52,938 bases of DNA from Oscillospiraceae bacterium (GTDB lineage: Bacteria; Bacillota; Clostridia; Oscillospirales; Oscillospiraceae). The position numbers and the translations under genes are program-made. The notes under the pieces were generated by a model. The model searched no databases. It was not told where the DNA came from and was given only the letters and a program-made list of their open reading frames with translations. The stretch spans positions 1 through 52,938 of the forward strand of contig JAFYHU010000018.1 of NCBI GenBank assembly GCA_017538965.1, in the 5' to 3' direction. This document shows, piece by piece, positions 13,314-28,432 of the stretch (position 1 is the first letter of the stretch; each line of letters begins with the position of its first letter).

Positions 13314-16300
13314 TCAGCTCTGGATTTCGATTTCAAAGGCGGGATTTGCCGCTTGAACAGGTTCCAGCGCGGTCGCCATATTCTCTGACACTTTCAGATA
13401 TTGCAGATGTTCCAGAGAGAGAACCGGCGTCAGGTCAGTCAGGCCGTCATTCCAGGGGATGTCCAAGCGTTCGAGTTCGGGATGTGCGGCGACCAGAGCG
13501 GCAAAGCTCTCGTTGTCATGGAAGCAGCCGACGGCAGAGAGCTCAAAGAGCTCGGTGTTTTCCAGCGCCGGAACCCAGAGCGCGGCGTCCAGATTGTTCG
13601 GGCAGAAATTGCGCAGCTGCCGGATGCTCGAGAGGGCGCTGAGATCTTCTGCCGGGAGCTCGCTGATTTCCAGCGACAGCCCGCCATTTTCATAAGCTTC
13701 GCGGAAGTCGCAATCCTGCAGCGGACTGAGGTCGCTGACCTGTGTATCGGAGAGACAGAGACGCTGCATACGGTTCAGGTTCTGTACACCCTGAATGCTC
13801 TCAACCGGGCAACTGCGGAGATCCAGCTCGCGCAGATCCTGCAGGGCGAAGGCCGCGGAGGCATCCGTCAGGTTCGGACAGTAATTCACCTGCAGCCGCT
13901 CGAGCGAGGAAAGGTTCTGAATCCCGTCGAGATTCTCCAGCGGCTGGCAGTACAGCGCCAACTCCCGCAGGCCGGTCAGCTCGGAAAAGATGCTGAGATC
14001 GGTAATGCTGCCCTGTTCCAGCGCGGTCAGCTCCTCCGTCTCCGGATTGAACCAGCAGGGGATCGGTTCGCCGGTCGTCCGGTCTTCCCGGACCCAGCCG
14101 GACAGCCCGTCATCGATCCTGTCGCCCACGATGCACAGATGTTCCACTTTTTTCAGCATGGATCTCGGCAAGGTTTCGAGGTCATCCAGACTCAGCAGTT
14201 CCACAGTCCCCTCGTAAGGCTGCCAGCCACTGTCGGGATAGGCGACGTCATATTCCTTGAAGTTTCCGGCTTCCACCAGCTCTTCCGCCTGTTCAGCATC
14301 CTGCGGCGGCACGGTCAGCTTGTCGCCGTGCAGACGGCGAAGCGGCGTCAGATCATAGAGGTCGTCCAGACCGACCAATTCCAGAATGTAACGCCAGCTG
14401 CTGTCGAGCGTGTCCAGACAGTGAAGATTGCTCAGATCATTTGTGCTTTCCAGGCGAAGAGTGTTCGTTTTAATATTGCTCAGGTCCGGGACGGAATAGG
14501 TACCGACCAGTTTCAGATTGCCCAGATAAGTGCCGGCCAGGGCGGACCAGTCATTCAGGCGCGGACAGCCGACAATTTCCAGTTCCACCTGTCCGCCGTC
14601 ACCGAACAGCGTCGGAATGTTTTCCATTCCGTTCAGCGAGCTAAGATACTGGCAATCCCAAAGCTCCAGTCTCCAGAGCGAATACGGCTTGAGGCCGCCG
14701 AGATCCTCCAGGTCCCCATAACGGATGCTCAGGTTCTGAATCCCGTCCGGCAGAGCACTCAGATCCACACCCCGGCAGGTATAGAGCATCAGCTCATCGA
14801 TCTGTGCGTCCTGAATATAAGGCAGCACCGCAGAGAAATCGCCGCCCCGGGAATCGACAAGGGGATTATTGCTGTTGCGGGGGTTGACGTGGAGATATTC
14901 ATAGTGCCTGATATGGGCAAGGCCGGAATAGTCCCGGATGTCCCCGGCAAAGCCCAGTCTGATCGAATCCTGGTTCCGAGCAATTCCTTCCAGGAAGTCC
15001 ATATTCACCAGATTGCAGGAATAAAGACCGATGTCCCGCAGTTTCGGCAGATCGGCAAGGAAAGACGCATCCCGCAGGGCGTCCGGATTCCGGTCACCCT
15101 GAACGTGAATCTTTTCCAGCGCCGTGCAGCCCGCGATGGGTGAATAGTCCGGCACGCGCTCACAATAAAGAATCTCCAGGTTTTTCAAGTTTTTGAGTGT
15201 ACCGACACCGGAGATATCACGAAGCGCGCTGCAGGTATCCAAAACCAGAAATTCCAGCGAGGGCAGGTCCTGCAGGAAAGAGAGTTCCGTCAGGGGAAGG
15301 TGATCGATATACAAGGAGGTCAGATTTTTGCTGCCAGACAAAGCGGAGAGATCGGGATTTCGAAGAGACTCACCGTTGTTCGTAATCAGCTCCTGCAGCG
15401 CCGGCGGTGCAAACCCTGAGAAATCTGCATCCGTCTGTCCGGTGAGGTCAATTTCAGCCTCTCGCAGCCGGGCGCACGACGTTAACGGGGAATAGTCCGT
15501 CACAGCGCAGCCGCTGACGGAAAATTCCTCCATCTCGGCTCCGGAAAGCCAGGAGAGCGAATCAATCGAGCAATTGCTCAGCCGGACAGTTCCGTTTTTC
15601 AGCAGAGCGTTCAGCTCAGGGAGACTTTCCGGATCGATCTCGATCAGCGCAATCTCCAGATCCCGGAGCTTCGGCATCAGAGCCAGAAATCGCAGATCAT
15701 CATATCGGGTCAGGCTGTATTCTCGACCGTCTTCCTTGCCGTACCAGTGCTCGCCGTCATCCTCCCTGACGGCATAAACCCGATCGGCGCCCTCGCCGTC
15801 TGCGCGCATCGCATCTGTGGCATAGCCGAAGTATTCACCGGCGATGACCACCTGGGTAATATCGGAAAGATCCGCTTCCGTCAGCCCGAGAGAAACCGGA
15901 ACCGCGATGGGCTCTTCTTCCGATATCGGCTCGGGCGTGACGGCCGGTTCGGTCTTTGTTCCGGCGCTTCGCCAGAGGAAAAGCCCGGCCAGCACAACCA
16001 GCACGGCAGCACCGGCGATCAGAAGCTTCGGCAGATTGTTTTTCTTTTCCGGGATCGCAGACAGGACACGCTCGGCAATGAGATCCGGGCTGCGGCCGGT
16101 TGCCGTAATGATGTTGCGGGCATAAAGCGCGTTCATCAGCGCATCCGGCACCTCAGATTCGTCGAGCTTCAGGGGCAGAACATTTTCGGCACCTGCGCCG
16201 AGTGCCTCGAGCAGGGTTTTCTGTTTCTGTTCATCGGCAAAGAACTGCTCTGACAGAACTGCCAGCAGCAGCTCTCCCTTTTTGAGACTGCCTTCGGCAT

Positions 16301-16403
16301 CCGAGACCCGCAGGCCCTTTTCCTTCAGAGCACCCAAGATCGGCTGCAGGGATACCCTGTCAGCCTCCGTGCACAGTACGCGCAGCAGAATGTTTTGTTT
16401 CAT
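13314..16403 (-). CDS. TIR-like-TM-giant LRR protein, paralogue 3
   Basis: 1,029 residues. Domains: divergent TIR-like (about 5-118) with a first strand ILLRVLCTEAD, then the strand LLLAVLSEQFFADE and NVLPLKLDESEVPDALM; one TM helix (about 126-145) preceded by lysines (positive-inside); a short Pro/Glu linker; then LRR units to the C-terminus (LPKLRDIGLYSC, LTGLRELALYCQPLENLDG, LSSLERLQVNYCPNLTD, LEHLQYLKVSENM). The expected topology is TIR inside and LRR outside. The C-terminal 150 residues are much closer to the two paralogues upstream than the middle is. Start: ATG 16403, six bases after GGGAGG, preferred to GTG 16406. A strong terminator separates it from the previous gene. Confidence 0.8.
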   Translation of the reverse strand: MKQNILLRVLCTEADRVSLQPILGALKEKGLRVSDAEGSLKKGELLLAVLSEQFFADEQKQKTLLEALGAGAENVLPLKLDESEVPDALMNALYARNIITATGRSPDLIAERVLSAIPEKKNNLPKLLIAGAAVLVVLAGLFLWRSAGTKTEPAVTPEPISEEEPIAVPVSLGLTEADLSDITQVVIAGEYFGYATDAMRADGEGADRVYAVREDDGEHWYGKEDGREYSLTRYDDLRFLALMPKLRDLEIALIEIDPESLPELNALLKNGTVRLSNCSIDSLSWLSGAEMEEFSVSGCAVTDYSPLTSCARLREAEIDLTGQTDADFSGFAPPALQELITNNGESLRNPDLSALSGSKNLTSLYIDHLPLTELSFLQDLPSLEFLVLDTCSALRDISGVGTLKNLKNLEILYCERVPDYSPIAGCTALEKIHVQGDRNPDALRDASFLADLPKLRDIGLYSCNLVNMDFLEGIARNQDSIRLGFAGDIRDYSGLAHIRHYEYLHVNPRNSNNPLVDSRGGDFSAVLPYIQDAQIDELMLYTCRGVDLSALPDGIQNLSIRYGDLEDLGGLKPYSLWRLELWDCQYLSSLNGMENIPTLFGDGGQVELEIVGCPRLNDWSALAGTYLGNLKLVGTYSVPDLSNIKTNTLRLESTNDLSNLHCLDTLDSSWRYILELVGLDDLYDLTPLRRLHGDKLTVPPQDAEQAEELVEAGNFKEYDVAYPDSGWQPYEGTVELLSLDDLETLPRSMLKKVEHLCIVGDRIDDGLSGWVREDRTTGEPIPCWFNPETEELTALEQGSITDLSIFSELTGLRELALYCQPLENLDGIQNLSSLERLQVNYCPNLTDASAAFALQDLRELDLRSCPVESIQGVQNLNRMQRLCLSDTQVSDLSPLQDCDFREAYENGGLSLEISELPAEDLSALSSIRQLRNFCPNNLDAALWVPALENTELFELSAVGCFHDNESFAALVAAHPELERLDIPWNDGLTDLTPVLSLEHLQYLKVSENMATALEPVQAANPAFEIEIQS

Positions 16404-16472
16404 CACGCGCCTCCCTTATCATCCCGCCGACAACGGCAGAGCATTGACTGTTCCCAATATGCCATGAAAAAC

Positions 16473-16497
16473 GGCCCCTGTCAAGAACAGGGGCCGA
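16473..16497 (-). terminator. Strong terminator between LRR paralogues 2 and 3
   Basis: A 10-bp stem (CGGCCCCTGT / ACAGGGGCCG on the plus strand) with a 5-base loop, immediately followed on the minus strand by TTTTTC. I see no convincing promoter between it and the ATG at 16403, so the last paralogue may depend on readthrough or on a weak promoter. Confidence 0.8.
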
Positions 16498-16515
16498 GAT
16501 AAGAACGGGAGCAGA

Positions 16516-19500
16516 TCAATACCGGATTTCGATTTCAAAGTGAGGGTTCGCCGCCCGGACGGCGTCCATGGCCTGCTCCATATTGGCGGAAACGCACAGA
16601 TACTGCAGATGCTCAAGCGAAAGCACCGGCGTCAAATCGGTCACGCTGTCGTTCCAGGGGATGTCCAGGCGTTCGAGCTCGGGATGTGCCGCAATAAACG
16701 CGGCAAAGCTTTCGTTGTCGTGGAAACAGTTGCAGGCGGACAAATCCCGGATTTCCGTATTTTCCAGCGACGGAGCCCAGAGCGAAACGTCCAGATTGTT
16801 CGGGCAGAAATTGCGCAGCAGCCGGATGCCGGACAGGGCACTGAAATCCTCGGTCGGAAGATCGGCAATCTCAAGCGAAAAGCCGCCGTTATCACAGGCC
16901 TCGCGGAAATCGCAGTCCTGCAGCGGGCTGAGGTCACCGACCTTTGTATGGAAAAGATTGAGATACTGCAGCCGATTCAGGTTCTGTACACCCTGAATGC
17001 TCTCGATCGGATTGCGACTGAGATCCATATCACACAGGTCCTGCAGGGCGAAGGCTGCAGAGGCATCTCGCAGATTCGGACAGAACTCCACCCGCAGACT
17101 TTCGAGCGAGGAGAGGCTCTGTATCCCATCAAGATTCTCCAGCGGCTGACAGTACAGCTCGAGCTGGCGCAGACCGGTCAGGACGGAAAAAATACCGACG
17201 TCCGTGACGCTGCCCGCCTCAATCTTTATACGTTCTTCCGTTTCCGGATTAAACCAGTAGGGGATCGGTTCGCCGTCTACCCAGTCTTCCTGAATCCAGC
17301 CGGACTGATCGCTGACGACTGTGTCGCCTACAAGCTGCAGACGATCCACGCGCTGCAGCAGCGACTTCGGCAGAGTCTCCAGCTCTTCCAGACTCAGCAG
17401 CGTGAAGGCTTCGTCCATGGGCTGCCAACTGCCGTCGGGGAAAGCGATCTCATAGCTGTTGACCACACCGGCATCCTTCAGCTCCTGCGCCTGATCACCC
17501 AGATGAGGCGGGACCATGAGCTGATTGATGCGAACCTGCCGCAGCGGACTGAGATTTTGCAGCTCGTTCAGATCTACGAGTTCCAGGCTGTTCATCGACT
17601 TTCCGTCGGTATCGATGGCCGGAACAAAGTCCAGATTGTCCAGGCCTTCGATGCTCTCAAGATGGAGGCTCTTCAAATGCAGTTTATCAAAGGCCGGCAG
17701 AGTATAGCAGCCGTAGAGACGAAGCTCTTTCAGTTTCGGGAGACTCTCCAGCGCGCTCCAATCCGTCAGACGGGGGCAGCCGTAAACCGTAAGCACGCCA
17801 TTGTCGATGCCCATCTGGCCGAGATTGTTCAGCGCCTGAATCCCTTCGAGGCTGGTCAGCTGCTGGCAGTTGTAGAGCACCAGCTCGGACAGGCCCTGGC
17901 CTTCGAGACCGGTCAGATCCTTGATGTCACCGCGCTGGATGGTGAGCTCCCGGGAAACCGGCGGCAGCGCGGAAAGGTCAATGTTCGTACACTCGTTCAG
18001 CCACAGGCTGTCGATCATTGCGTTCTGCAGATAGGACATGATCTGTGAAACATCACCGCTGGGGTTGCTTTCGGTGCGGGGAAGAAACTGCAATTTTGAA
18101 TACCGGGGAATGGCGGCAAGACCGGAATAGTCGGTAAAGTTGCCGGAAAAAGTGAAGTTCAGCGGGCCGTTGTCTTTCAGACTTTCCAGAAAGCTCATAT
18201 CCCGCAGCGAGAGGTTATCAAACGCGATCATTCGGAGTCGGTTCATATTCTGAAGGAAGGAGGCGTCGCGAAGCTGCTGCATATTACTCAGCCGGATCTG
18301 CTCAAGCATGATGCAGCCGGAGACAGGCTGAAAGTCATTTATCAGCGGGCAATTCTCAATTCGCAGGAATTTCAGCTTTTCGGCGTTTTCAAGGGCAGAG
18401 ATATCCCGGAGTTCACTGCAGTTGCAGAGATGGAGCTCCTCGAGGGCTTCCGCCTTTCCGATCAGGCTCAGATCCGTGATCGAGACGGCATTCAGGAGAA
18501 GTTCTTTCAGCGAGGAATCCTTTGCAAGCGCTGAAAGATCTCCGCCGGGGGCGAAGCGAACATTATCCATCTGCAGCCTCTGCAATTTCGGGCAGAAATT
18601 CGAAACTTCCACCTGGACATCATCCATCCGGTAAAGGTCCACCGTCAGGCGGCGCAGCCGCTCACAATCCGTCAGGGGGGAGAGATCCGTGACCGGGCAG
18701 CGACTGACGGACAGCTCAATGACGCCAGAGCCTTTGAGTCCGCTCAGGTCACGGATGCTGCACTCCTGCAGGCTGACCCGCTCGAGGGCTTTGAGGGCGC
18801 TGAGATCCGGGAGCGCGTTCGCATCCACCAGCACCAGCGACAGGCTGCGCAGATTCGGCAGGCAGCTCAGGAAGTCCAGGTTCCAGTCGGACAGCTCGTA
18901 TTCGTGGCCATCATCATTGCTGTACCAATGAGCCCGGTCATCCTGGCGACTGTCATAGGCGATGCTGTATTCGTCCAGGACATGCTGGGGGTCGGCATGT
19001 TCGTTGAACTCGCCCTGGTTCTTCGAGATCTGCTCCAAGCTGCGCCATTCCAAGCTGTCGCCGATGATGACAAGATCGCGGATTTTCTCCAGATCTTCGG
19101 CCGTCATGCCCTTCGGGACCGCAATCTTGATCTCTACGGTCGGCTCCGGCGTTGCTGTCGGCTCGGGTGTCGGGGTCGGCTCCGGCACTGCCGTTCCGCT
19201 GCTGCGCCAGACCAGAAAACCCGCCAGCCCCGCCAGCACGACGGCGCCGGTGATCAGGATCTTCGGCAAAGCGCTTTTTTTCTTCGGAATCGCCGCCAGC
19301 ACACGCTCGGCAATGAGATCCACATCCCGGCCGGACGCCGAAATGATGTTGCGGGCATAGAGCGCATTCATCAGCGCCTCCGGCACCTCAGATTCGTCGA
19401 GCTTCAGGGGCAGGACGTTTTCGGCACCGGCACCAAGCGTCTCGAGCAGAGATTTCTGTTTTTCTTCGTCGGCAAAGAAGTTTTCCGACAGCGCTGCCAG

Positions 19501-19635
19501 CAGCAGTTCTCCCTTTTTGAGACTGCCTTCGGCATCCGAAATCTGCAGGCCTTTTCCCTTCAGGGCATCCAGAATCGGCTGCAGAGCGACTTTGTCCGCC
19601 GAGGCGCACAGGACACGCAGGAACGCTTTTTTCAT
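16516..19635 (-). CDS. TIR-like-TM-giant LRR protein, paralogue 2
   Basis: 1,039 residues with the same plan as its neighbours. The TIR-like domain (about 3-117) begins AFLRVLCASADKVALQ and includes LLLAALSENFFADEE and NVLPLKLDESEVPEALM. It lacks the standard TIR box FVSYSHxD; the only candidate for the catalytic Glu is in the helix after the NFFADEE segment, so NADase activity is doubtful. The TM is about 124-144 with KKK on its cytoplasmic side, followed by a Pro/Thr/Glu stalk (PEPTPTPEPTATPEPT). The LRR ectodomain is about 170-1,039, with an embedded conserved island (LLSLEELETLPKSLLQRVD, then GEPIPYWFNPETEE). GAAAGG precedes the ATG; it starts 16 bases after the upstream paralogue. Confidence 0.82.
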   Translation of the reverse strand: MKKAFLRVLCASADKVALQPILDALKGKGLQISDAEGSLKKGELLLAALSENFFADEEKQKSLLETLGAGAENVLPLKLDESEVPEALMNALYARNIISASGRDVDLIAERVLAAIPKKKSALPKILITGAVVLAGLAGFLVWRSSGTAVPEPTPTPEPTATPEPTVEIKIAVPKGMTAEDLEKIRDLVIIGDSLEWRSLEQISKNQGEFNEHADPQHVLDEYSIAYDSRQDDRAHWYSNDDGHEYELSDWNLDFLSCLPNLRSLSLVLVDANALPDLSALKALERVSLQECSIRDLSGLKGSGVIELSVSRCPVTDLSPLTDCERLRRLTVDLYRMDDVQVEVSNFCPKLQRLQMDNVRFAPGGDLSALAKDSSLKELLLNAVSITDLSLIGKAEALEELHLCNCSELRDISALENAEKLKFLRIENCPLINDFQPVSGCIMLEQIRLSNMQQLRDASFLQNMNRLRMIAFDNLSLRDMSFLESLKDNGPLNFTFSGNFTDYSGLAAIPRYSKLQFLPRTESNPSGDVSQIMSYLQNAMIDSLWLNECTNIDLSALPPVSRELTIQRGDIKDLTGLEGQGLSELVLYNCQQLTSLEGIQALNNLGQMGIDNGVLTVYGCPRLTDWSALESLPKLKELRLYGCYTLPAFDKLHLKSLHLESIEGLDNLDFVPAIDTDGKSMNSLELVDLNELQNLSPLRQVRINQLMVPPHLGDQAQELKDAGVVNSYEIAFPDGSWQPMDEAFTLLSLEELETLPKSLLQRVDRLQLVGDTVVSDQSGWIQEDWVDGEPIPYWFNPETEERIKIEAGSVTDVGIFSVLTGLRQLELYCQPLENLDGIQSLSSLESLRVEFCPNLRDASAAFALQDLCDMDLSRNPIESIQGVQNLNRLQYLNLFHTKVGDLSPLQDCDFREACDNGGFSLEIADLPTEDFSALSGIRLLRNFCPNNLDVSLWAPSLENTEIRDLSACNCFHDNESFAAFIAAHPELERLDIPWNDSVTDLTPVLSLEHLQYLCVSANMEQAMDAVRAANPHFEIEIRY

Positions 19636-19651
19636 GGTCTTTTCCTTTCTA

Positions 19652-22600
19652 TTAATCGATTTCGATTTCGAAAGCGGGATTTGCCGCCCGGACAGCCTCC
19701 AGCGCAGCCGTCATGTCCTCTGACACATCCAGATATTGCAGATGTTCCAGAGAAAGGACGGGCGTCAGATCGGTCAGGCTGCTGTTCCAGGGAATGTCCA
19801 GGACCTCCAGCTCGGGGTGCGCTTCGACAAGAGCGGCAAAGCTCTCATTATCCCGGAAGCAGTTGTGCGCCGAGAGTTCAAAGATCTCGGTGTTCTCCAG
19901 AATCGGAAGCCAGAGAGCGGGGTCCTGATCATTCAGTCTCAGGCAGCGCAGCCGCCGAATTCCCGAAAGCGCGCTGAGATCTTCAGCGGGGATGTCGAAA
20001 AGTTCCAGCCAGAGACCGCTGTTGTTTTCGTATGCATCAGAGAAGTCACAGTCCTGCAGCGGGCTGAGGTCTTGAATTTCTGTTCCCTGAATCTTCAGCA
20101 ATTGCAAACGGCTCAGGTTCTGCACGCCCTGAAGGCTCTCGACAGGGCTGGCGCTGAGATCCAGCTCTCGCAAATCCTGCAGGGCGAAAGCCGGGGAGAT
20201 GTCGGTCAGATTCGGGCAGTGCTGGAGCACCAGTTTCTCAAGCGAGCCGAGATTTTGGATCCCGTCAAGACTGCTGAGAGGCTGGCCGCAGAGCTCCATC
20301 TCACACAGACCGGTCAGATCGGAAAAAATACCAAAGTCCGCAATACTGCCCATTTTAATCTCGGAACGATCGTCCGTGTTCGGATCATACCAGTACAGGA
20401 TCTGTCGTCCGTTTACCCATTCATCCTGAATCCAGCCCTCCCTGCCGTCTTCGATGACGCTGTCGCCCGCGATCCGGAGCCTGTCCACGCGCCGCAGCAG
20501 GGATTTCGGCAGAGTCTCCAGCTCGTCCAGACTCATCAGGCTGAAATGCTCGTCCATGGGCTCCCAGCTGCCGTCGGGGAAGGCGATCGTAAAGCTGCTG
20601 ACAGCGCCGTCATCCTTCAGTTCCTGCGCCTGCTCAGACAGCTGGGGCGGCACGGTCAGCAGGGCAATGCGAACCTGCCGCAGCGGGCTGAGGTCTTTCA
20701 GCGCATTCAGATCCACCAGTTCGATGCGGTTAAAGGACTTGCCGTCGGTATCGATCTCCGGGACAAAGTCAAGGTTATCCAGCTCTTCGATGCTCTCCAG
20801 ATGCAGGCTTTTCAGATGCAGCTTGGAGAAGTCCGGCAGGACATAGCAGCCGTAGAGGCGAAGCTCATTCAGCTCCGGAAGACTCTCCAGGACACTCCAG
20901 TCCGTCAGACGAGGGCAGCCGTATACCTCGAGCGTGCCGCCGTGCTTTCCGAGCTGGGTCATATCCTGCAGGCCTTCAAGAGAAGACAGCTGCGGGCAGC
21001 TGTAAAGCTGCAAAGCGGAAACGGGACGATCTGCCAGACCGCTCAGATCCCGAATGTCGCAGTATCGGAGCTCCAGCTGATTGGCGACCTTCGGCAGGGA
21101 AGAAAGCTCCAGATTCGAACAGTTCTCCAGAGACAGGCCATTGATGACCGCATCCTGCAGCAGCGACAGGATCCCGGAGATATCGCCATTGGGGTTATAC
21201 CAGGTTCGGGGATCAATCGACAGAAATGAATACACGGGAATGGCAGAAAGGCCGGAATAATCCTGAATATCGCCGGAAAGACGGAGGGTCATAGCGCTGT
21301 TGTTCTTCAGGCCTTCCAGGAAGTTCAGGTCCTGCAGATTCAGAGCATGCAAAGTGATGTTTTTGAGCCTTTTGAGATTCTGCAGGCAGCTGAGATCGCG
21401 AACCTGCGGCAGGTTATGCAGATGAAGCTCCTCAAGCACGCTGCAGCTCCGGACGGGGCTGAGGTCTTCCAGCTGCCGGCAGTCATCAAATTGCAGAAAA
21501 GACAGCCGCTCGGCATTTTCAAGAACGCTGATGTCCCGCAATTCGTTACAGGCGAAGACTTCCACCCGGTCGAGGACCTTTGTCGAGCCGATCAGCGAGA
21601 GATCGGTGACAGGGACATCGTTCAAAAAGAGTTCGTTCAAGGTGGTCTGAGATGCAAACGCCGAAAAATCGCTGCCGGGGGCGAGCTCTATGTTCATGAG
21701 ATGCAGACGATTCAGCTTCGGCGAATAATTCGAAAAATCGGCCCGTACGCCGGTTCCGTACAGATCTATCTCCAGACGGCGCAGTTTTTCGCAGCCCGAG
21801 AGGGGCGAATAATCCGATACCGGGCACTTGAAAAGCTGCAGTTCGTTGATGCTCGAGCCGCTGAGCCCGCTGATATCGCGCAGGCTGCAGTCTTCGAGGG
21901 TAACACGCTCCAGATGGCTGAGGGTGCCGAGATCGGGAAGAGAATTTGCGTCTACGAGCGTCAGTGTCAGCTGGCGCAGGTTCGGCAGAGCGCTCAGAAA
22001 CTCCAGATCCCAGACGGTACTCTGGAATTCATGCCCGTCTTTCACACTATAATAGTGCTGCCGGTCGCCGTCCCAGGTATCGTAAACAATCTCGTTCCTG
22101 TCAAGAGAACCGTCATAGACGCGCAGGATCTGGTCTTCGGAACGCCATTCGAGGGTGTCGCCGACGATGACGACGTCCCAGATTTTTTCGAGATCTTCGA
22201 TCGTCATGCCGGCCGGGACAGAAACCGTAATCTCCTGAGTCGGCTCCGGCGTCGGTTCGGGTGTCGGGGTCGGCTCCGGTGTCCCAGCTCCGCTGCTTCG
22301 CCAGAGCAGGAAGCCTGCCAGCACGGCGAGAACGGCTGCCCCGGCGATCAGGACTTTCGGCAGGGGGCTCTTCTTCTCCGGGATGGCCGCCAGCACACGT
22401 TCGGCGATCAAGCCGGGTTCACGACCGGCTGCCGGAATGATGTTGCGCGCATAGAGCGCGTTCATCAGGGCCTCCGGCACCTCGCTCTCGTCCAGCTTCA
22501 GGGGAAAGACGTTTTCTCCGCCCGTGCTCAGGGCGTTCAGCAGGATGTTCTGCTTTTCTTCGTCTGCGAAGAAGCGTTGCGAAAGCGCGGCCAGCAGGAT

Positions 22601-22732
22601 TTCTCCGTTCTTCGGAATCCCATCCGATGCCGAGATCCGCAGGCCCTTTTCCTTCAGGGCGTCCAGAATCGGCTGCAGTGCAGCTTCGTCCTCTTTCGTG
22701 CACAGTACGCGGAGCGCAGCGTTCCTTTTCAT
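19652..22732 (-). CDS. TIR-like-TM-giant LRR protein, paralogue 1
   Basis: 1,026 residues, first of the three tandem paralogues. TIR-like domain about 3-117 (AALRVLCTKEDEAALQPILDA, ILLAALSQRFFADEE, NVFPLKLDESEVPEALM); TM about 123-143; Pro/Thr stalk (PEPTPTPEPTPEPT); LRR units thereafter, typically 20-25 residues with L-x-x-L-x-L cores followed by a conserved C-x-x-L or D-L/I-S/T-P turn. The protein ends in FEIEID, and the paralogues end in FEIEIRY and FEIEIQS. GGGGAAAG precedes the ATG, 15 bases after the SLOG gene stop, so the genes should be co-transcribed. Ligand unknown. Confidence 0.82.
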   Translation of the reverse strand: MKRNAALRVLCTKEDEAALQPILDALKEKGLRISASDGIPKNGEILLAALSQRFFADEEKQNILLNALSTGGENVFPLKLDESEVPEALMNALYARNIIPAAGREPGLIAERVLAAIPEKKSPLPKVLIAGAAVLAVLAGFLLWRSSGAGTPEPTPTPEPTPEPTQEITVSVPAGMTIEDLEKIWDVVIVGDTLEWRSEDQILRVYDGSLDRNEIVYDTWDGDRQHYYSVKDGHEFQSTVWDLEFLSALPNLRQLTLTLVDANSLPDLGTLSHLERVTLEDCSLRDISGLSGSSINELQLFKCPVSDYSPLSGCEKLRRLEIDLYGTGVRADFSNYSPKLNRLHLMNIELAPGSDFSAFASQTTLNELFLNDVPVTDLSLIGSTKVLDRVEVFACNELRDISVLENAERLSFLQFDDCRQLEDLSPVRSCSVLEELHLHNLPQVRDLSCLQNLKRLKNITLHALNLQDLNFLEGLKNNSAMTLRLSGDIQDYSGLSAIPVYSFLSIDPRTWYNPNGDISGILSLLQDAVINGLSLENCSNLELSSLPKVANQLELRYCDIRDLSGLADRPVSALQLYSCPQLSSLEGLQDMTQLGKHGGTLEVYGCPRLTDWSVLESLPELNELRLYGCYVLPDFSKLHLKSLHLESIEELDNLDFVPEIDTDGKSFNRIELVDLNALKDLSPLRQVRIALLTVPPQLSEQAQELKDDGAVSSFTIAFPDGSWEPMDEHFSLMSLDELETLPKSLLRRVDRLRIAGDSVIEDGREGWIQDEWVNGRQILYWYDPNTDDRSEIKMGSIADFGIFSDLTGLCEMELCGQPLSSLDGIQNLGSLEKLVLQHCPNLTDISPAFALQDLRELDLSASPVESLQGVQNLSRLQLLKIQGTEIQDLSPLQDCDFSDAYENNSGLWLELFDIPAEDLSALSGIRRLRCLRLNDQDPALWLPILENTEIFELSAHNCFRDNESFAALVEAHPELEVLDIPWNSSLTDLTPVLSLEHLQYLDVSEDMTAALEAVRAANPAFEIEID

Positions 22733-22747
22733 CTTCTTTCCCCTTTT

Positions 22748-24355
22748 TTATAATGAAATTTCAGGCTGATTGTCTCTCTGGTACGAGCACCAGTTGCCGT
22801 TTTCAATCAGTTCTTCCCTGGCCAGCGCGGTCAGCAGCGCCTCGGTCTGCCCTTTCTCCTGCAGCATCTCGGACATGCGGCTGTAAAAACGCTCCATTTT
22901 TCCGTGGTCCGAAAGGACCCGGGGCAGAGAAAGCCTGCCGTAGTAATTAGCGACAAACAGCGTGACCGCCGAAATGCTGCCCAGGACGATTTTCAGAACC
23001 GTTCGGTAGCCTTCGGCGTTGCCCACGGGCAGCAGCGGGCGGGTGAGCGCGCCGCCGCAGAAGAGCTCAAACAGCAGCGCCAGGCAATACAGGGCGATAC
23101 TCAGACGCAGCGCGGTGCCGACAAGCCGTTCGCTGAAGCGGCTTTCCTGCCGCGCCTTTCTCTCCGCCTGCCGATGATAGTCCCGCTGCCGCTCTACCCA
23201 GCACGCGCGAATATCGTGCTGCTCCTTCGGCGGGCGGCCGGCGCGGAGCGCGCAGAGGGCATCCAGGATCCAGGCGGTTTCCTCCTGCTGGGTCCAGGAG
23301 AGCAGGTTTTCCGCCTGAATCCCGCTTCCGGCATGACGCAGATAGATGCAGACGCGCAGGCATTCCGCCAGAGCACGGTATTCAATATAGCGACGCAGAC
23401 AATCCGAGCGGCCGGCGTAACGCTGACACAGCCAGGCCAGAAGCAGAATCAGACCGAGCACCAGAATCAGACCGACCGCCTGCGCTTCGTCATACAGCAG
23501 AAAGGCCATGGCGATAAGCGCACTTGCCACGGCAAGCGCGGCCAGGGTCAGCCGGTAGCGTCGGGCGTTCTGTTTTGAGAGCATACTTGCCGCACCGTAA
23601 ATCCGCAGCATCCGGGCGAGCACAGCATCCTCCGGGTCCTCTTCCGGCAGCAGGGTCTGTGCTTCCGGCTGTACATTTTCGGCCAGACGGTTAAACTCTT
23701 CGGTGCGCCGCAGAATCTCTTCCATGGCCTGTCGGTCTCCCAGAACATGAACCGTGCCGGCGGCTTCGGTTTCTGTCTCCGCCCGCGGCGTGAAGACATG
23801 CCAGACAAGCGTGTTGCGGGCGGTGCGCACCGGCAGACCGCTCTCAGGGCTGCAGATACCCTGCAGCGCAAAGTCCACGGCCTCGGCCGTCCCGCAGCCA
23901 TGCTCTCCGGGATGTCCGTCCCAGAGGGCAAGCAGGATGTGAGCGTGCGCCGACACATAGATCCCGGCCTGCCGGTAGGCATCGTCCCGGGGTTTCCTTT
24001 CCGCCGGCAGGTCTTCGCTCCGCGGCGTGACAAAAAGCTGTTCCGCCCGGGCGTAGTGCTTCCGGAGGCGTTCTCTTTCCGCAGGACAGAAGTCCTTTTC
24101 GTAATCCTCCGGGGGCAAAGGGAGCGCTGCGACCAGAGGAATTCCGAGATCTTCCGCCGCATCCGCACACAGGAGATCCGCCCCCTCCGCCAGACTGCAG
24201 AGCAGGATGAGAGGGGAGTGAGGAACCTGCTCCCGCAGGGAGAGCAGCAGGGAACGAACCGATGCCCGCAGGGCGGGAAGATCCTGCTGCCGCAGCCGGC
24301 GGTGACCGGTTACGCCGATGACAATCGGTATCTTCTTTTCGGAATTCTGAGGCAT
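22748..24355 (-). CDS. SLOG-domain protein with four TM helices (SLATT-like)
   Basis: 535 residues. N-terminal SLOG-type Rossmann domain (about 8-190): IVIGVTGHRRL, LLCSLAEGADLLCADAAEDLGIPL, LPPEDYEKDF, HILLALWDGHPG and the GTAEAVDFA loop are the family's nucleotide-binding landmarks. Two helical hairpins follow: TM about 268-287 and 291-311, then about 411-433 and 452-472, with a charged helical region between them, like the SLATT effector modules that accompany SLOG and SMODS proteins. In Thoeris, the SLOG domain of ThsA binds a TIR-made cyclic ADP-ribose isomer; here a SLOG-gated membrane effector is an inference. Lies 20 bases after the TIR-TM-LRR gene. Confidence 0.78.
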   Translation of the reverse strand: MPQNSEKKIPIVIGVTGHRRLRQQDLPALRASVRSLLLSLREQVPHSPLILLCSLAEGADLLCADAAEDLGIPLVAALPLPPEDYEKDFCPAERERLRKHYARAEQLFVTPRSEDLPAERKPRDDAYRQAGIYVSAHAHILLALWDGHPGEHGCGTAEAVDFALQGICSPESGLPVRTARNTLVWHVFTPRAETETEAAGTVHVLGDRQAMEEILRRTEEFNRLAENVQPEAQTLLPEEDPEDAVLARMLRIYGAASMLSKQNARRYRLTLAALAVASALIAMAFLLYDEAQAVGLILVLGLILLLAWLCQRYAGRSDCLRRYIEYRALAECLRVCIYLRHAGSGIQAENLLSWTQQEETAWILDALCALRAGRPPKEQHDIRACWVERQRDYHRQAERKARQESRFSERLVGTALRLSIALYCLALLFELFCGGALTRPLLPVGNAEGYRTVLKIVLGSISAVTLFVANYYGRLSLPRVLSDHGKMERFYSRMSEMLQEKGQTEALLTALAREELIENGNWCSYQRDNQPEISL

Positions 24356-24375
24356 AGCCGCATCCTTTTCTCTTG

Positions 24376-25548
24376 TTATCGGACCAGAATAACGTCAAAA
24401 CGGGCATCCGGACTCCAACGCAGGGGAAGCATGTCGAGGCTGACGGTCACGGTTTTCAAAGCCGGCAGCTGCTCCAGCGGCGTCAGGTCACGGACGTTGG
24501 TATATTCCAGATGAAGCGTGTTCAGAGACGGCAGGTCGGAGAGACCTTCGAGCTTTATCGCGCTGCTTCCGGAGAGGTTCAGGTTTTTCAGCAGCTGCAG
24601 GCCGGAAAGCGGGGAGAGGTTGGAGACCGGCTGACAGATCAAAGCCAGGTCCTCCAGCTGCAGCATGTTTGCCATGAGGGAGAGATCCTTTACCTGCCCC
24701 TGGATCACCGGAGCGGAGTTTACCAGACAGGTTCCGTCTTCGCGGAAGCTGACGCCGTTCAGGCTGTTTCTGACCATGTTACCGCAGAAATACAGGGAAG
24801 ACAGCTCTGCCAGGTTCCAGGCCTGGATCTCTTCCGTCGGCATCTGCAGCGCGTTCCGCACGGCTCGTTCCTGCTGCGTATCGGGGAAGCTGATGGCAAA
24901 GAAGCGTTCGTTTCCGCCCAGATCAATGACCGTCGGCGCTGTCGGAGTCGGGGTAGGCGTCGGGGCAGGCGTCGGGGTCACGACAGGCACTTCCGGCGGC
25001 GGAAACGGGGTCCAGCGGCCGGTGGCGAGAAGAGCAAAACCGGAGGCTGCCGCAGCGAAGAACAGCAAAGACGCCACAAGACCCAGCGCCCGCCAGGGGA
25101 TGCTCACGGTCCAGCGATGATGAAAGCGTCTCGTCAGAAAGCCCGAGGCCAGAATCTGTTCCGCGTCCTCTTCTTCCGTTTCAAGGGATTCCAGGTGTTT
25201 TTTTCTGTCCGGGAGCACGTCCCAGTCCGCACCGCCTTCAACATCCTCCAGCCTCAGAACCAGGATCGGCTTCCGAAGCCTGGCTGCCGTCCGGATTTCA
25301 CTGAGGCAGTTGGGAGACAGGAGCGCCGTCTCGGACAGGAAGAACAGCACAGCTCCGCAGTCTTCCATATGGCGGGCAATGTTTGCCGGCCAGTCGCTGC
25401 CGGCGGGAATCCCTTCGTCATACCAGAGCCGCCAGCCCTTTTCGTGCAGAATGCGAATAGTGGAGACAACTCGGTCGGACTGCCGGTGGGAATAGCTGAC
25501 AAACAGGAAAGGCTTTTTCCCTTCATACGGCTTGAAAAATCCCTTCAT
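24376..25548 (-). CDS. TIR-TM-LRR receptor-like protein
   Basis: 390 residues. A clear TIR domain (about 10-115): box FLFVSYSHRQSDRV, GWRLWYDEGIPAGSDW, VLFFLSETALLSPNCLSEI, KPILVLRL. Glu84 in SPNCLSE is in the position of the catalytic glutamate of NAD-cleaving TIR domains, so this member may be enzymatically active. A TM helix (about 152-176) is followed by a Pro/Thr stalk (VTPTPAPTPTPTPT) and a short LRR region (about 250-375: LEDLALICQPVSNLSPL, LLKNLNLSG, LNTLHLEYTNVRDLTPLEQL). Predicted topology: TIR inside, LRR outside. It overlaps the stop of the preceding TIR-like gene by 4 bases (ATGA). Confidence 0.88.
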   Translation of the reverse strand: MKGFFKPYEGKKPFLFVSYSHRQSDRVVSTIRILHEKGWRLWYDEGIPAGSDWPANIARHMEDCGAVLFFLSETALLSPNCLSEIRTAARLRKPILVLRLEDVEGGADWDVLPDRKKHLESLETEEEDAEQILASGFLTRRFHHRWTVSIPWRALGLVASLLFFAAAASGFALLATGRWTPFPPPEVPVVTPTPAPTPTPTPTAPTVIDLGGNERFFAISFPDTQQERAVRNALQMPTEEIQAWNLAELSSLYFCGNMVRNSLNGVSFREDGTCLVNSAPVIQGQVKDLSLMANMLQLEDLALICQPVSNLSPLSGLQLLKNLNLSGSSAIKLEGLSDLPSLNTLHLEYTNVRDLTPLEQLPALKTVTVSLDMLPLRWSPDARFDVILVR

Positions 25549-26375
25549 GATTCATCGCCTCCTGTCAGCACCAGCACAAAGTCCTCTCCAGGCAGGCTTT
25601 CCGCCTCCAGGACGGCGTCCTGCGGGAGTACAATGCGTTCCAGATTCGGCAGCTTTTCCAGATCTTCCCAGCTGTCCGGAAGACTCTCCAGCCGAAGCTC
25701 GGTTACGGCGGCGACGGATTCTTCGGTCAGCACGGCGCTACCCGAGGCGATTCGGGCCGCTTCCCGGACGGTCGGATCAGCGAACTCAACCGTGTCCTGC
25801 GGCAGTTCCGGCTGAAACCAGTGAAAGACCCGCAGACCGAGAAAACCTCCGAGGAGGAGGAGCAGAGAGAGCACGCAGAGAAGCGCCGTCAGACGCCCCG
25901 TCAGGCCTTCCTTTTTCAGGAAAACCGGGTCGCCGATCATCTCCTGTGTAAAGCCTTCCGTACGGACCAGGGCTTCTTCCAGGTCTTCCGTCCGATGATA
26001 CTGCCAGGCTGCCAGATGCGGGATGCTCTCGTGGAGACCCATGTTCAGAGCGCGGTCGGAGGAGTCCCGGTCGATGCAGAGAATCTTCCGCCCGTTTTTC
26101 TGGTTGACGAGGACAGAAGCTTTGCCGTCCTGGTCCTGGGTCATGGCATCCGTCAGATAGACTGCAGTGAGCGAGGCGCCGAGGGCACGCTGCTGCCGGC
26201 GCAGCAATTCATCCGCGCTGCCGGCCGGGCCCGTGGAATACCAGATCCGGACGCCGCGCTGCAGAAGCAGGCGCACCAGATCGCGGATTCTGCCGGCGTC
26301 GGCATCGGCAAAGGCGAGATACAGATAGGGCTCGCTGCCTTCATAGGGCGCGATCTGTTTTCTCCAGTCTTTCAT
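25545..26375 (-). CDS. Degenerate TIR-like membrane protein
   Basis: 276 residues. It shares the start pattern PYEGxxPYLY with the next gene and keeps a TIR-like layout (YLYLAFADADAGRIRDLV, RGVRIWYSTG, LTAVYLTDAM, RKILCIDRD), but the SYSH box and the WC-x-x-E region are lost. A TM helix (about 161-184) is followed by about 90 residues containing only an LRR cap and one or two LRR-like units (VTELRLESLPDSWEDLEKL, LERIVLP). It looks like a catalytically dead partner of the TIR-TM-LRR protein, possibly a scaffold or regulator. It is coupled by 4-base overlaps to both neighbours. Confidence 0.72.
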   Translation of the reverse strand: MKDWRKQIAPYEGSEPYLYLAFADADAGRIRDLVRLLLQRGVRIWYSTGPAGSADELLRRQQRALGASLTAVYLTDAMTQDQDGKASVLVNQKNGRKILCIDRDSSDRALNMGLHESIPHLAAWQYHRTEDLEEALVRTEGFTQEMIGDPVFLKKEGLTGRLTALLCVLSLLLLLGGFLGLRVFHWFQPELPQDTVEFADPTVREAARIASGSAVLTEESVAAVTELRLESLPDSWEDLEKLPNLERIVLPQDAVLEAESLPGEDFVLVLTGGDES

Positions 26376-28432
26376 TCTGCATTTTCTCCGCTGTCCAGGC
26401 GATAAATCCGCAGACCGTCAAACTTCCGAAGCAGGACGAGCAGTTTGTTGAAGGGCTTCCAATCCTTGTCCTGATCCTCTTCCGGCAGGGACAGCCAGTG
26501 GGCGCGTATCAGCTCTTCCGTAAGCTCGCCGTCCATCATCAGCTTGTTGCAGCGCAGCTGCTCCCGCAGGGTGCGGCGGGAGGCTTTCTCTTCCCCAGCG
26601 TTCTCCGGCAGAGGGAGAGTTTCATACTCCCGCCCGAAGCGCCAGCCCATGGCGCGGTGCTCCCGCAGCCAGCGCTCGTGTTCCAGCGGCGCAAAGACGG
26701 CCGCCTGTTCCGGCGTAAACTCGGTAACCATGTCATAGTCTACGGGTCGGTCGGTATAGAAGCAGCCGATGGCATCCAGATAACGGCCAAAATAGCGGGC
26801 GCGGCTGATGGTGGAGAGCTCGTATTCCAGAGAGAGGCTGCGGAAATGCCTCTCCAGCTCCTCTGCCGTACTCTCCGGCGGCAGAGACCGCCCATGCAGA
26901 GCGACGGCAAAATCATACAGATGCAGGAAGCTGGAATCGGAAAGATAGGTATGCTTGACACGCCGGTTGGCCTCCCGGATGCTCGTCACCACATGCAGGG
27001 GGCAGATGCCGGTGTCCACAATTCTTTCGATATCGGCGGTAAAATCCGGCTTTCCGTCGGCTTCTACAGCCATGTCGCTGTATGCCTTCAGACGGGGTTT
27101 CGGCTTCGGACGGCCGGCGCTTTCCCATTCCTGCCGGGCAGCAAAATAGGCGTCGATCTTCTCCTGTTCTTCCCGGTCATAACAGTAGACAACGGAAAGC
27201 CGGCCGTCTGAGAAATCAAACTCAGCCGCCATGGGCTGCAGCTCCGTCCGCGAATTGCGGCCGTAGGCGATGCGGTCCCAGCACTGCAGCTCGTCACAGA
27301 GCATCAGCAGCCAGGCGAGAGGATGCAGCGATGCCGACAACGGATCTTTCCGCAGCTCGTCGCCCTCCTTATAAAAAGCAATGGAAAACTTGAAGATGCT
27401 GTTGTGCAGAAGAATGGCGGAAAGCACATCGATGTGTTCTTTTGTCAGGCTGTCAATACGGAGCGTCTTTTCCAGTTCCCGGTAGAGCCGCAGTGCCGAA
27501 AAGACAGCATGATCCATATAATAATGGAAGCGCTCCGGCTCAGACGGCTTGTCCCGGACAATGTCCTGCAGGTAATCCGGCGGGAAGGAATAGGCTTTTC
27601 CCAGTTTTCGGGAAACATCCCAGGCGAGCAAATCCGAGATGCTGTCAAAGTTCTTGTCATAAAGCGCCTTAAAATGCGCCTGTTCCTCTCCGCTCAGCGC
27701 CGTCAGACAGTCGATGCCCTTGTAGGACAGGTACAGACAGTCCTTGCCGCGATCCTGGTTATCCACCTCAAAATAGGAGAGCACCTGTTCAAAGGGCAGT
27801 TCAAAGGGATAGCCGATATCGTGAAACAGCGCCGTCAAACCCCAGTATTCCAGGAAATAATTCGCGCGCTCCGCTTCCGTTTTCTGCTCCAGATGATAGA
27901 AGCGGCAAAAAACATCCCGGTATTTCCCGTTGGTCTCATAGAGCGCCAGACCCAGCGCAAATACATAGACAGAATGGGAATAATGATCCCGGTGCTTCAG
28001 CAGCAGAGAGCTCCCGTTTTCCTCGTACTCGCTCAGCAGCTCCACCATCCGCCTGGACTTGCCATAGTGGCCGAGAAAGATCTCGAGAAAGCAATAGTAA
28101 ACGAGATAGGCATCTTCTGCGATACCGGAATCGATAAAAGTCGCCAGCGACCGTTCGAGACAGAGACGGTTGAGATCCATTTCCATGTTGTAGGGGATCT
28201 GATTCGGCCGAAGGCTGGTGCCGCAATATTGCCCGGTTTCCGCTTCTGCAGCTTCCATTTCGCGATTGAAGCGCAGACCTTCGCAGCGTTCGCGCAGAAA
28301 GCGCAGGGCGGCCGATTTCAGATCCATCCCCGTTTCGCAGTCTTTGCCGAAAGGCGGCTGCATGGGTCCGATGTCCTTTCCGAAGCGTTTTCGGTTTTCT
28401 TCTCTCATTTTTTCCAGCGCCGTATAGGCCAT
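26372..28432 (-). CDS. HD-domain protein with C-terminal RyR domain
   Basis: 686 residues, first gene of the array. Residues about 145-420 form an HD-type phosphohydrolase-like helical domain: HRDHYSHSVYVFALG, LTALFHDIGYPFE (H204, D205) and the later helix AILLHNSIFKFS. Residues about 583-672 match a RyR domain: HERWLREHRAMGWRFG, then LPEEDQDKDWKPFNKL. RyR domains are known both in ryanodine receptors and in prokaryotic nucleotide-linked conflict systems. Inferred role: sensing or hydrolysing a nucleotide signal made by the TIR proteins. AGGAGG precedes the ATG; a promoter lies at 28504-28532. The next gene overlaps by 4 bases. Confidence 0.8.
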   Translation of the reverse strand: MAYTALEKMREENRKRFGKDIGPMQPPFGKDCETGMDLKSAALRFLRERCEGLRFNREMEAAEAETGQYCGTSLRPNQIPYNMEMDLNRLCLERSLATFIDSGIAEDAYLVYYCFLEIFLGHYGKSRRMVELLSEYEENGSSLLLKHRDHYSHSVYVFALGLALYETNGKYRDVFCRFYHLEQKTEAERANYFLEYWGLTALFHDIGYPFELPFEQVLSYFEVDNQDRGKDCLYLSYKGIDCLTALSGEEQAHFKALYDKNFDSISDLLAWDVSRKLGKAYSFPPDYLQDIVRDKPSEPERFHYYMDHAVFSALRLYRELEKTLRIDSLTKEHIDVLSAILLHNSIFKFSIAFYKEGDELRKDPLSASLHPLAWLLMLCDELQCWDRIAYGRNSRTELQPMAAEFDFSDGRLSVVYCYDREEQEKIDAYFAARQEWESAGRPKPKPRLKAYSDMAVEADGKPDFTADIERIVDTGICPLHVVTSIREANRRVKHTYLSDSSFLHLYDFAVALHGRSLPPESTAEELERHFRSLSLEYELSTISRARYFGRYLDAIGCFYTDRPVDYDMVTEFTPEQAAVFAPLEHERWLREHRAMGWRFGREYETLPLPENAGEEKASRRTLREQLRCNKLMMDGELTEELIRAHWLSLPEEDQDKDWKPFNKLLVLLRKFDGLRIYRLDSGENAE

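Follow-up and report, generated by a model that had tools for sequence, protein, structure and literature searches.

The question raised by this locus is whether seven adjoining genes for HD-RyR, TIR, SLOG and leucine-rich repeat (LRR) proteins belong together and, if so, what kind of system they encode. The genes lie in a window of 52,938 nucleotides (the whole stretch of DNA that was analysed; contig JAFYHU010000018.1 of assembly GCA_017538965.1) from an Oscillospiraceae bacterium, where the listing of open reading frames (ORFs) contains seven long minus-strand ORFs, gA to gG, within positions 13314-28432. A sequence-only reading had proposed a candidate Toll-receptor-like sensing or defence system. 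The seven minus-strand genes with the domains it named were recovered here from the ORFs, Pfam, profiles of relatives and profile-profile comparison, and its transmembrane (TM) helices were seen by hydropathy. The gene set is real, conserved and coherent, and it is moderately probable that it constitutes a membrane-receptor-driven, Thoeris-like nucleotide signalling module.

Recurrence of the gene set was analysed in GTDB genomes. A profile of eight gA proteins retrieved 287 relatives, and the loci studied were the best 80 of these 287, so that the sample leans to close relatives and linkage to gA within it is given by construction. The 80 relatives were derived largely from ruminant-gut-like metagenome-assembled genomes of clostridial and other Bacillota, with one labelled Chloroflexi (L165). 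gC was present in 23 of the 80 gA loci and in four loci from family searches; the resulting 27 loci comprise 25 distinct ones because of shared DNA in L029/L140 and L083/L121. In 27/27 of them an LRR giant was located 3′ of gC and gA was on the same strand. The gB-gC junction was an exact 4-base overlap in 24/26 cases, the remaining two being 4 bases apart and 17 bases overlapping. Three gene orders were observed, namely gA-gB-gC-gD-LRR, gA-gB-gC-LRR-gD (or the same without gD) and gB-gC-LRR-gA-gD, with one to three giants per cluster, and in L112 and L164 gA was located 6.8 and 3.2 kb, respectively, from the other cluster genes. Since the arrangement recurs in 27 loci, it is not a product of chance. 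A search with gB of 400 family genomes, which is independent of the gA selection, matched 25 genomes, mostly in TIR-only form; the near full-length matches above 40% identity (the window, G109, G059, G356 and G382) all had the arrangement gA-gB-gC-LRR. The sixth long match (33%, G174) was a gC-like protein of 476 residues, next to which no gA was found. Among 398 genomes sampled from the phylum, full-length gA was detected only in the genome of the window itself, and three others matched the HD half. Homologues of these genes do occur together in other genomes, as the sequence-only reading required, with gB-gC-LRR and gA in 27/27 loci and in 5/5 gB matches above 40% identity.

Within the window, the junctions in gA-to-gG order measure -4, -4, 20, 15, 16 and 109 bases as calculated from the coordinates. 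Two 4-base overlaps and four gaps of 20 bases or less had been described; the overlaps are present and the short gaps number three only, the gF-gG gap being 109 bases long. This gap contains the longest terminator-like stem of the whole scan (16472-16496, minus strand; a consensus match of 11 pairs, 8 of them G-C, followed by TTTTT) and a promoter-like match, and gG may for that reason be a separate transcript. Terminator-like matches were in excess in the region (30 vs. a shuffle mean of 14.9, standard deviation 3.2), and promoter-like matches were not (5 vs. 4.2, standard deviation 2.2). A gG transcribed alone, as well as gA and gD each found elsewhere without gB-gC-LRR, would suit a row of independent neighbours, in which a TIR-LRR adhesin-like family happens to adjoin a separate HD-RyR/SLOG module. 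Such a row is already disfavoured by the 27/27 co-occurrence in three orders, where most gaps are shorter than 60 bases, and it is considered highly improbable.

If the genes form one unit, the roles of the individual proteins may be read from their domains. gC (24376-25548, minus strand, 390 residues) has the order TIR-TM-LRR, with Pfam matches to TIR_2 (E=2.7e-15) and LRR_4 (E=4.5e-4). Its Ser78, Asn80, Cys81 and Glu84 were invariant in 24/24 proteins, and Glu84, whose codon was placed at 25297-25299 (minus strand) by the alignment of gC proteins, is presumably the catalytic residue as in TIR enzymes. A TIR domain with the catalytic residue, as in Thoeris, is thereby present (TIR_2 at 2.7e-15; Glu84 in 24/24). 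gB (25545-26375, minus strand, 276 residues) consists of a TIR-like domain without the catalytic Glu and one TM helix (residues 162-180, hydropathy). No TIR was found by Pfam in gB or in the N-termini of the giants, and the relationship became visible through profile-profile comparison: hhalign of gB against gC gave 98.8% (E=1.4e-16) with nearly the whole of gB covered, and the TIR segments alone gave 99.4%. At the position aligned to gC Glu84, no Glu was present among 26 gB proteins, and in the giants this position was variable with one Glu among 26. The missing Glu points to gB and the giants as non-catalytic scaffolds, with gC as the one likely enzyme of the set. The suggestion that the cytoplasmic TIR makes or relays a signal is therewith refined, only gC keeping the catalytic Glu; the division between enzyme and scaffolds had not been part of it.

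The giants gE (19652-22732; 1026 residues; LRR_4 E=1e-17; TM helix at residues 126-144, hydropathy), gF (16516-19635; 1039 residues; LRR_4 E=5.3e-24) and gG (13314-16406; 1030 residues; GTG start; LRR_4 E=6.8e-19), all on the minus strand, are TIR-like-TM-LRR paralogues. Their N-terminus gave hhalign values of 90% (E=1.7e-6) against gB and 40% (E=2.9e-4) against gC, and the controls gD and gA gave 0.3%. The number of decoy families, 12 at first, was enlarged to 115 (at least two members each, from the fetched loci), which together with two TIR sets and three reversed sets made a test of 120 profiles. In this test the giants' own family ranked first, followed by five TIR-containing profiles with 43-95.5% (best E=1.4e-8); among the best 12 of the 120 profiles the next best by score reached 2.6%, and the reversed controls 0.1%. 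No match to the TIR-TPR family c4 was obtained (0.7%). Two PDB searches speak against these calls: the giants' N-terminal profile retrieved no TIR, the best match being unrelated (E=0.038), and a search with the TIR stretch of gC by itself gave no PDB chain at E<=0.01, which argues against easy TIR calling. From the profile comparison, by which the giants score as TIR relatives, we conclude that their N-termini are predicted remote TIR homologues; at the level of sequence, the assignment of the N-terminal domains to TIR is upheld.

Counts of Lys and Arg around the TM helix fit a TIR domain inside and LRRs outside in 24/29 giants and 26/28 gC proteins, and in 15/27 gB proteins only. The topology of Toll-like receptors that had been ascribed to these proteins is supported by these counts for gC and the giants, which likewise combine an LRR ectodomain, one TM helix and a cytoplasmic TIR, the topology here being taken from charge counts only. 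The order along the chain does not agree: it is TIR-TM-LRR, the reverse of the N-terminal LRR and C-terminal TIR of the animal receptors, and for this reason the likeness is topological. The LRRs are moreover of internalin type, and one partner TIR looks enzymatic. A homologue of Toll-like receptors was therefore rejected as a classification, and the resemblance is an analogy of topology with no evidence of descent. The TIR domains of animal Toll-like receptors are without enzymatic activity (PMC11249213), in which they resemble the putative scaffold TIRs of this cluster. Internalins were among the best LRR matches of the giants and gC; the present proteins differ from them in that a TM helix connects the LRR with a TIR or TIR-like domain in the cytoplasm.

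A tree of 23 giants united gE, gF, gG and the L097 giant in one clade (100/100), in which the L097 giant paired with gE (100/99), so that the duplications predate the split between gE and L097. Identity between the paralogues was 63-90% in alignment columns 1-150 (TIR-like domain and TM helix), 29-50% for gE-gG and gF-gG and 41-82% for gE-gF in columns 151-800, and 57-80% in columns 851-1050. The LRR motif scan aligned 7 repeats in its first version and 20 in the widened one; over these 20 repeats, concave-face positions were identical in 68/237 cases compared to 308/526 outside the motif, counted over three paralogue comparisons that are not independent. For 20 C-terminal concave codons the ratio of nonsynonymous to synonymous substitution rates (dN/dS) was 0.89-1.29, compared to 0.12-0.18 for the remainder there. 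Against a special divergence of the concave face it counts that this favourable contrast covers 20 codons only, that in the middle LRR region the concave values (0.25-0.27, where calculable) are lower than those of the rest (0.39-0.49) with synonymous sites saturated, and that variation at the concave face is common among LRR proteins. Diversifying selection on the concave codons was set aside, since the middle region runs the opposite way with saturated synonymous sites.

The candidate for reading a signal is gA (26372-28432, minus strand, 686 residues), an HD-RyR protein. Its HD hydrolase core (residues 147-380; 27293-27994, minus strand), the extent of which was taken from conserved residues, contains H150, H204, D205, H308, H343 and D380, all identical in 60/60 homologues; this pattern is taken by us to resemble that of binuclear HD phosphodiesterases. 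In the RyR domain (residues 556-680; 26393-26767, minus strand), H585, W588 and D657 were kept in 60/60 homologues, H629 in 58/60 (Asn in the window's gA) and H645 in 57/60. Pfam gave only a sub-threshold HD match for the window's own gA (E=0.019) and no RyR match for it, and among the 60 homologues 36 matched RyR (best 2.5e-5) and 17 matched HD at E<=1. In a PDB profile search with eight gA proteins the repeat domains of ryanodine receptor 3 ranked first (E about 0.1), and with 60 gA proteins they dropped to second place (E about 1) after a chain that is unrelated (0.13). The RyR and HD assignments are predictions from motif, position and several members of the family, with no single strong match. 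In a preprint, the phage RyR protein RyDEP was reported to cleave 2′ and 3′ cyclic ADP-ribose (cADPR) with H75, W78, H100 and D117 as ligand contacts; six of eight selected homologues bind, and beyond a phage DyoEdafos protein none cleaves (PMC13232231). The pair H585-x-x-W588 of gA (60/60) matches H75-x-x-W78 of RyDEP with the same spacing. By analogy with that preprint, the idea that the RyR domain may bind a signal gains support. Outside the clusters, open frames of 578-593 residues in L196-L198 (G995:C12, G1077:C2, G1033:C127) match the HD half of gA only (within residues 89-418), and the HD half may thus be separable from RyR. A stretch of an unannotated 8.3-kb record of a Bacteriophage sp. 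(MT836912.1:3898-4287) is 36% identical to the gA RyR domain (E=2e-17). In L108 (6854-12031) an open frame runs from a 1049-residue stretch without Pfam match at E<=0.01 into the HD-RyR protein, either by fusion or by chance.

The second candidate reader is gD (22748-24355, minus strand, 535 residues), with a SLOG domain at about residues 8-190 (23786-24334, minus strand; extent by eye; conserved GVTGHR and SLAEGAD stretches) and four TM helices of SLATT/DUF4231-like type (hydropathy). By Pfam the window's gD gave a sub-threshold DUF4231 match only (E=3e-4, under the curated cut-off) and no SLOG family match, being not among the 18 homologues that match; a PDB search with gD gave one weak unrelated match only. 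At E<=0.5, 18/25 homologues matched the YAcAr SLOG family, 23/25 DUF4231 and 3/25 SLATT_3, by which the combination of SLOG with a SLATT-type membrane part is found in the family. Short gD forms of about 310-330 residues align to the TM part only, which suggests that SLOG and the TM helices can occur apart. The SLOG-TM partner proposed earlier is borne out in its domains through the homologue profiles; across the loci gD is optional. The SLOG domain of ThsA has a 3′cADPR pocket (PMC11204291), and SLATT has been described as a predicted nucleotide-responsive pore (PMC7159879).

These three sources together (PMC13232231, PMC11204291, PMC7159879) favour gC as the putative signal maker and gA and gD as its readers. 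In the proposed mechanism, each giant would span the membrane once, with its TIR-like domain, devoid of catalytic function, inside the cell and a long LRR ectodomain of internalin type outside. A ligand such as a phage particle, a toxin or the envelope of a neighbour would bind this ectodomain, whose concave face differs from copy to copy. The giants and the dead TIR of gB would then activate gC through TIR-TIR contacts, and gC would convert NAD+ to an ADP-ribose signal, e.g. a cADPR isomer. This signal would be read by the RyR domain of gA with the HD hydrolase as effector and, where gD is present, by its SLOG domain, upon which the TM helices would perturb the membrane. Ligand sensing, signal identity, TIR-TIR activation, the effector roles and a part in defence we infer; the gene content, its recurrent linkage, the overlap of gB and gC, the domain homologies, weak in some cases, the TIR that retains its catalytic residue and the pattern of divergence among the paralogues were observed.

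Whether gA reads the signal or removes it was considered with the help of its other TIR partners. Iteration of a TIR profile over the 80 loci revealed a TIR gene in 50/80 gA loci (37/50 among those with more than 5 kb on each side). Of 75 TIR ORFs 74 were on the gA strand, 32 loci had one within 150 bases, and TIR density within 3 kb of gA was 7.2 times that beyond 6 kb. TIR-WD40 genes (beta-propeller repeats) adjoin gA at L030:13036-15639 (minus strand) and L126:7672-9945 (plus strand), and gA-neighbour TIR genes in L145 and L174 also match ThsB_TIR. Family c4, of about 745 residues, shares a run with gA in 17 loci; the one member scanned by Pfam (L105:4226-6475) is a TIR-TPR protein with a second TIR-like part by eye. 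An off-switch function of gA, in which RyR and HD would protect the cell by capturing or breaking down the TIR product and the toxic output would lie in NAD+ loss by gC or in gD, would be in line with the very different TIR proteins that gA partners, as a general quencher might, and with the 2′/3′cADPR degradation or sequestration by RyDEP-type RyR domains (PMC13232231). It is slightly weakened by the gA-c4 loci, in which no family other than c4, and hence no other signal reader, occurs in more than three of the 17, an argument that presupposes a TIR not toxic by itself; for this reason gA is tentatively taken as reader and effector. In the same preprint one RyR protein cleaved and the other tested homologues did not, while six of eight bound. 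An off-switch is accordingly rated as rather unlikely.

The surroundings of the cluster bear on whether its role is one in conflict at all. One flank carries a molybdopterin-type gene and Mod-type genes, and the other a HAD hydrolase and a TRAP-type transporter (Mod and TRAP by eye). The moeA-mod block adjoins other genes in three genomes of the genus, in G704 near another TIR gene, and the HAD-TRAP block (HAD 69% identical) was found at two places with the cluster absent. At this site the cluster appears to be accessory. One gA was located on an IMG/VR contig beside relaxase- and ParM-type genes (by eye); no gA was found on plasmids and no gC relatives among viral contigs. The outward LRR orientation, the metabolic and transport flanks and a kinase-TM-LRR family in six related loci would agree with a surface-sensing cluster without conflict role, whose LRRs would recognise molecules of the host, the cell wall or neighbours and whose TIR, RyR-HD and SLOG proteins would control physiology via a nucleotide signal. 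Its patchy occurrence (gB above 40% identity in 5/400, gA in 11/150 and full-length gA in its own genome only among 398) and the differing site in sister genomes are more in keeping with an accessory set of conflict genes, and a purely physiological role is regarded as improbable.

Several observations weigh against the signalling module as proposed. gD is present in 15/27 clusters and missing in 12, at least four of the latter reaching a sequence edge, and in three loci it occurs apart from gA-gB-gC (G109:C9, G011:C23 and, partly, G065:C35). Among the 11/150 family genomes with a gA match, eight had no gB-gC in the region examined (two contigs of about 7 kb), and 30/80 gA loci, some with short flanks, had no TIR by profile. 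A TIR-WD40 gene at L149:13709-16453 (minus strand), beyond gD and on the strand opposite to gA, was missed by the profile, so that the TIR loci number at least 50 and the bias in strand comes out slightly too high. For the RyR domain, the pairing of D657 with D117 of RyDEP was made by eye only (72 vs. 42 residues past the His), and the counterpart of RyDEP H100 may be H629 or H645, in the former case with Asn in the window's gA. Neither PADLOC nor NCBIfam called a system; PADLOC returned weak TIR matches only, and the ThsB match of gC was weak (E=0.012). Outward LRR sensing is also unusual for phage defence.

With these points in mind, the signalling module was compared with known systems. As in Thoeris, a candidate TIR enzyme is accompanied by proteins whose domains sense nucleotides, SLOG included; one class of ThsA is a TM effector, and TM-macro effectors were suggested to oligomerize on nucleotide binding (PMC11204291). 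The module differs in the TM-LRR sensor candidate, the dead TIR partners, the HD-RyR protein as constant partner and the SLOG domain with four TM helices. No SIR2 or macro match was obtained for the seven proteins at E<=1 with Pfam, NCBIfam and PADLOC, where HMMER filters drop weak matches, and filing as Thoeris was rejected as no SIR2-SLOG or TM-macro effector was found. gA has a RyR-like domain (PF02026) with the H-x-x-W pair by which RyDEP contacts cADPR, yet RyDEP is a phage counter-defence protein and the RyR domain of gA is fused to an HD hydrolase in a cellular TIR cluster. SLOG with TM helices is common to gD and the SLOG/SLATT network of Burroughs and Aravind, and a set of HD-RyR, dead TIR and TIR-LRR was not seen in the consulted part of the account of that network. 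RyR domains also belong to a wider network of such nucleotide-conflict systems. In the literature surveyed, as far as the papers listed and the consulted parts go, neither this cluster nor a bacterial receptor of the TIR-TM-LRR type was found described; the work of Burroughs and Aravind may mention them. For the cluster as a whole we infer a variant of TIR-based nucleotide signalling with a surface-receptor architecture.

To our knowledge, the TIR immune enzymes described in bacteria mostly go with sensing inside the cell. A TIR under a transmembrane LRR, with dead TIRs around one that looks alive, would make a link of surface reception to TIR signalling testable in bacteria, and the duplicated ectodomains offer a direct handle on the sensed ligand. 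The cluster would also place in a cellular context RyR domains that read cADPR-type signals, as shown for phage proteins (PMC13232231). As a more tentative idea, it might be a counterpart of Toll immunity in gut and rumen Firmicutes, in which duplicated surface LRR receptors, diversified for ligands, act through non-catalytic TIR scaffolds on one TIR enzyme whose ADP-ribose signal is read by RyR-HD and SLOG-TM at once.

Further genes were noted in the surveyed loci and in the window. Members of family c6 in six related runs (L098:8146-9864, L100, L101, L112, L119 and L124) have the architecture Ser/Thr kinase-TM-LRR (Pfam on L098), receptor-kinase-like in bacteria, with a small gene carrying a sub-threshold helix-turn-helix match just before. 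In L130, L138 and L118, kinase genes (with WD40 in L118) and a lipase-like gene (by eye) share operon-like runs with HD-RyR. In the window, a molybdate-binding-protein-like ORF at 10448-12010 (minus strand) apparently consists of two tandem near-copies of one domain (by eye), and the version in three genomes of the genus has about 283-299 residues. Outside the cluster, an LRR_4 protein of 538 residues is encoded at 4886-6502 (minus strand) beside a GtrII-type glucosyl transferase gene.

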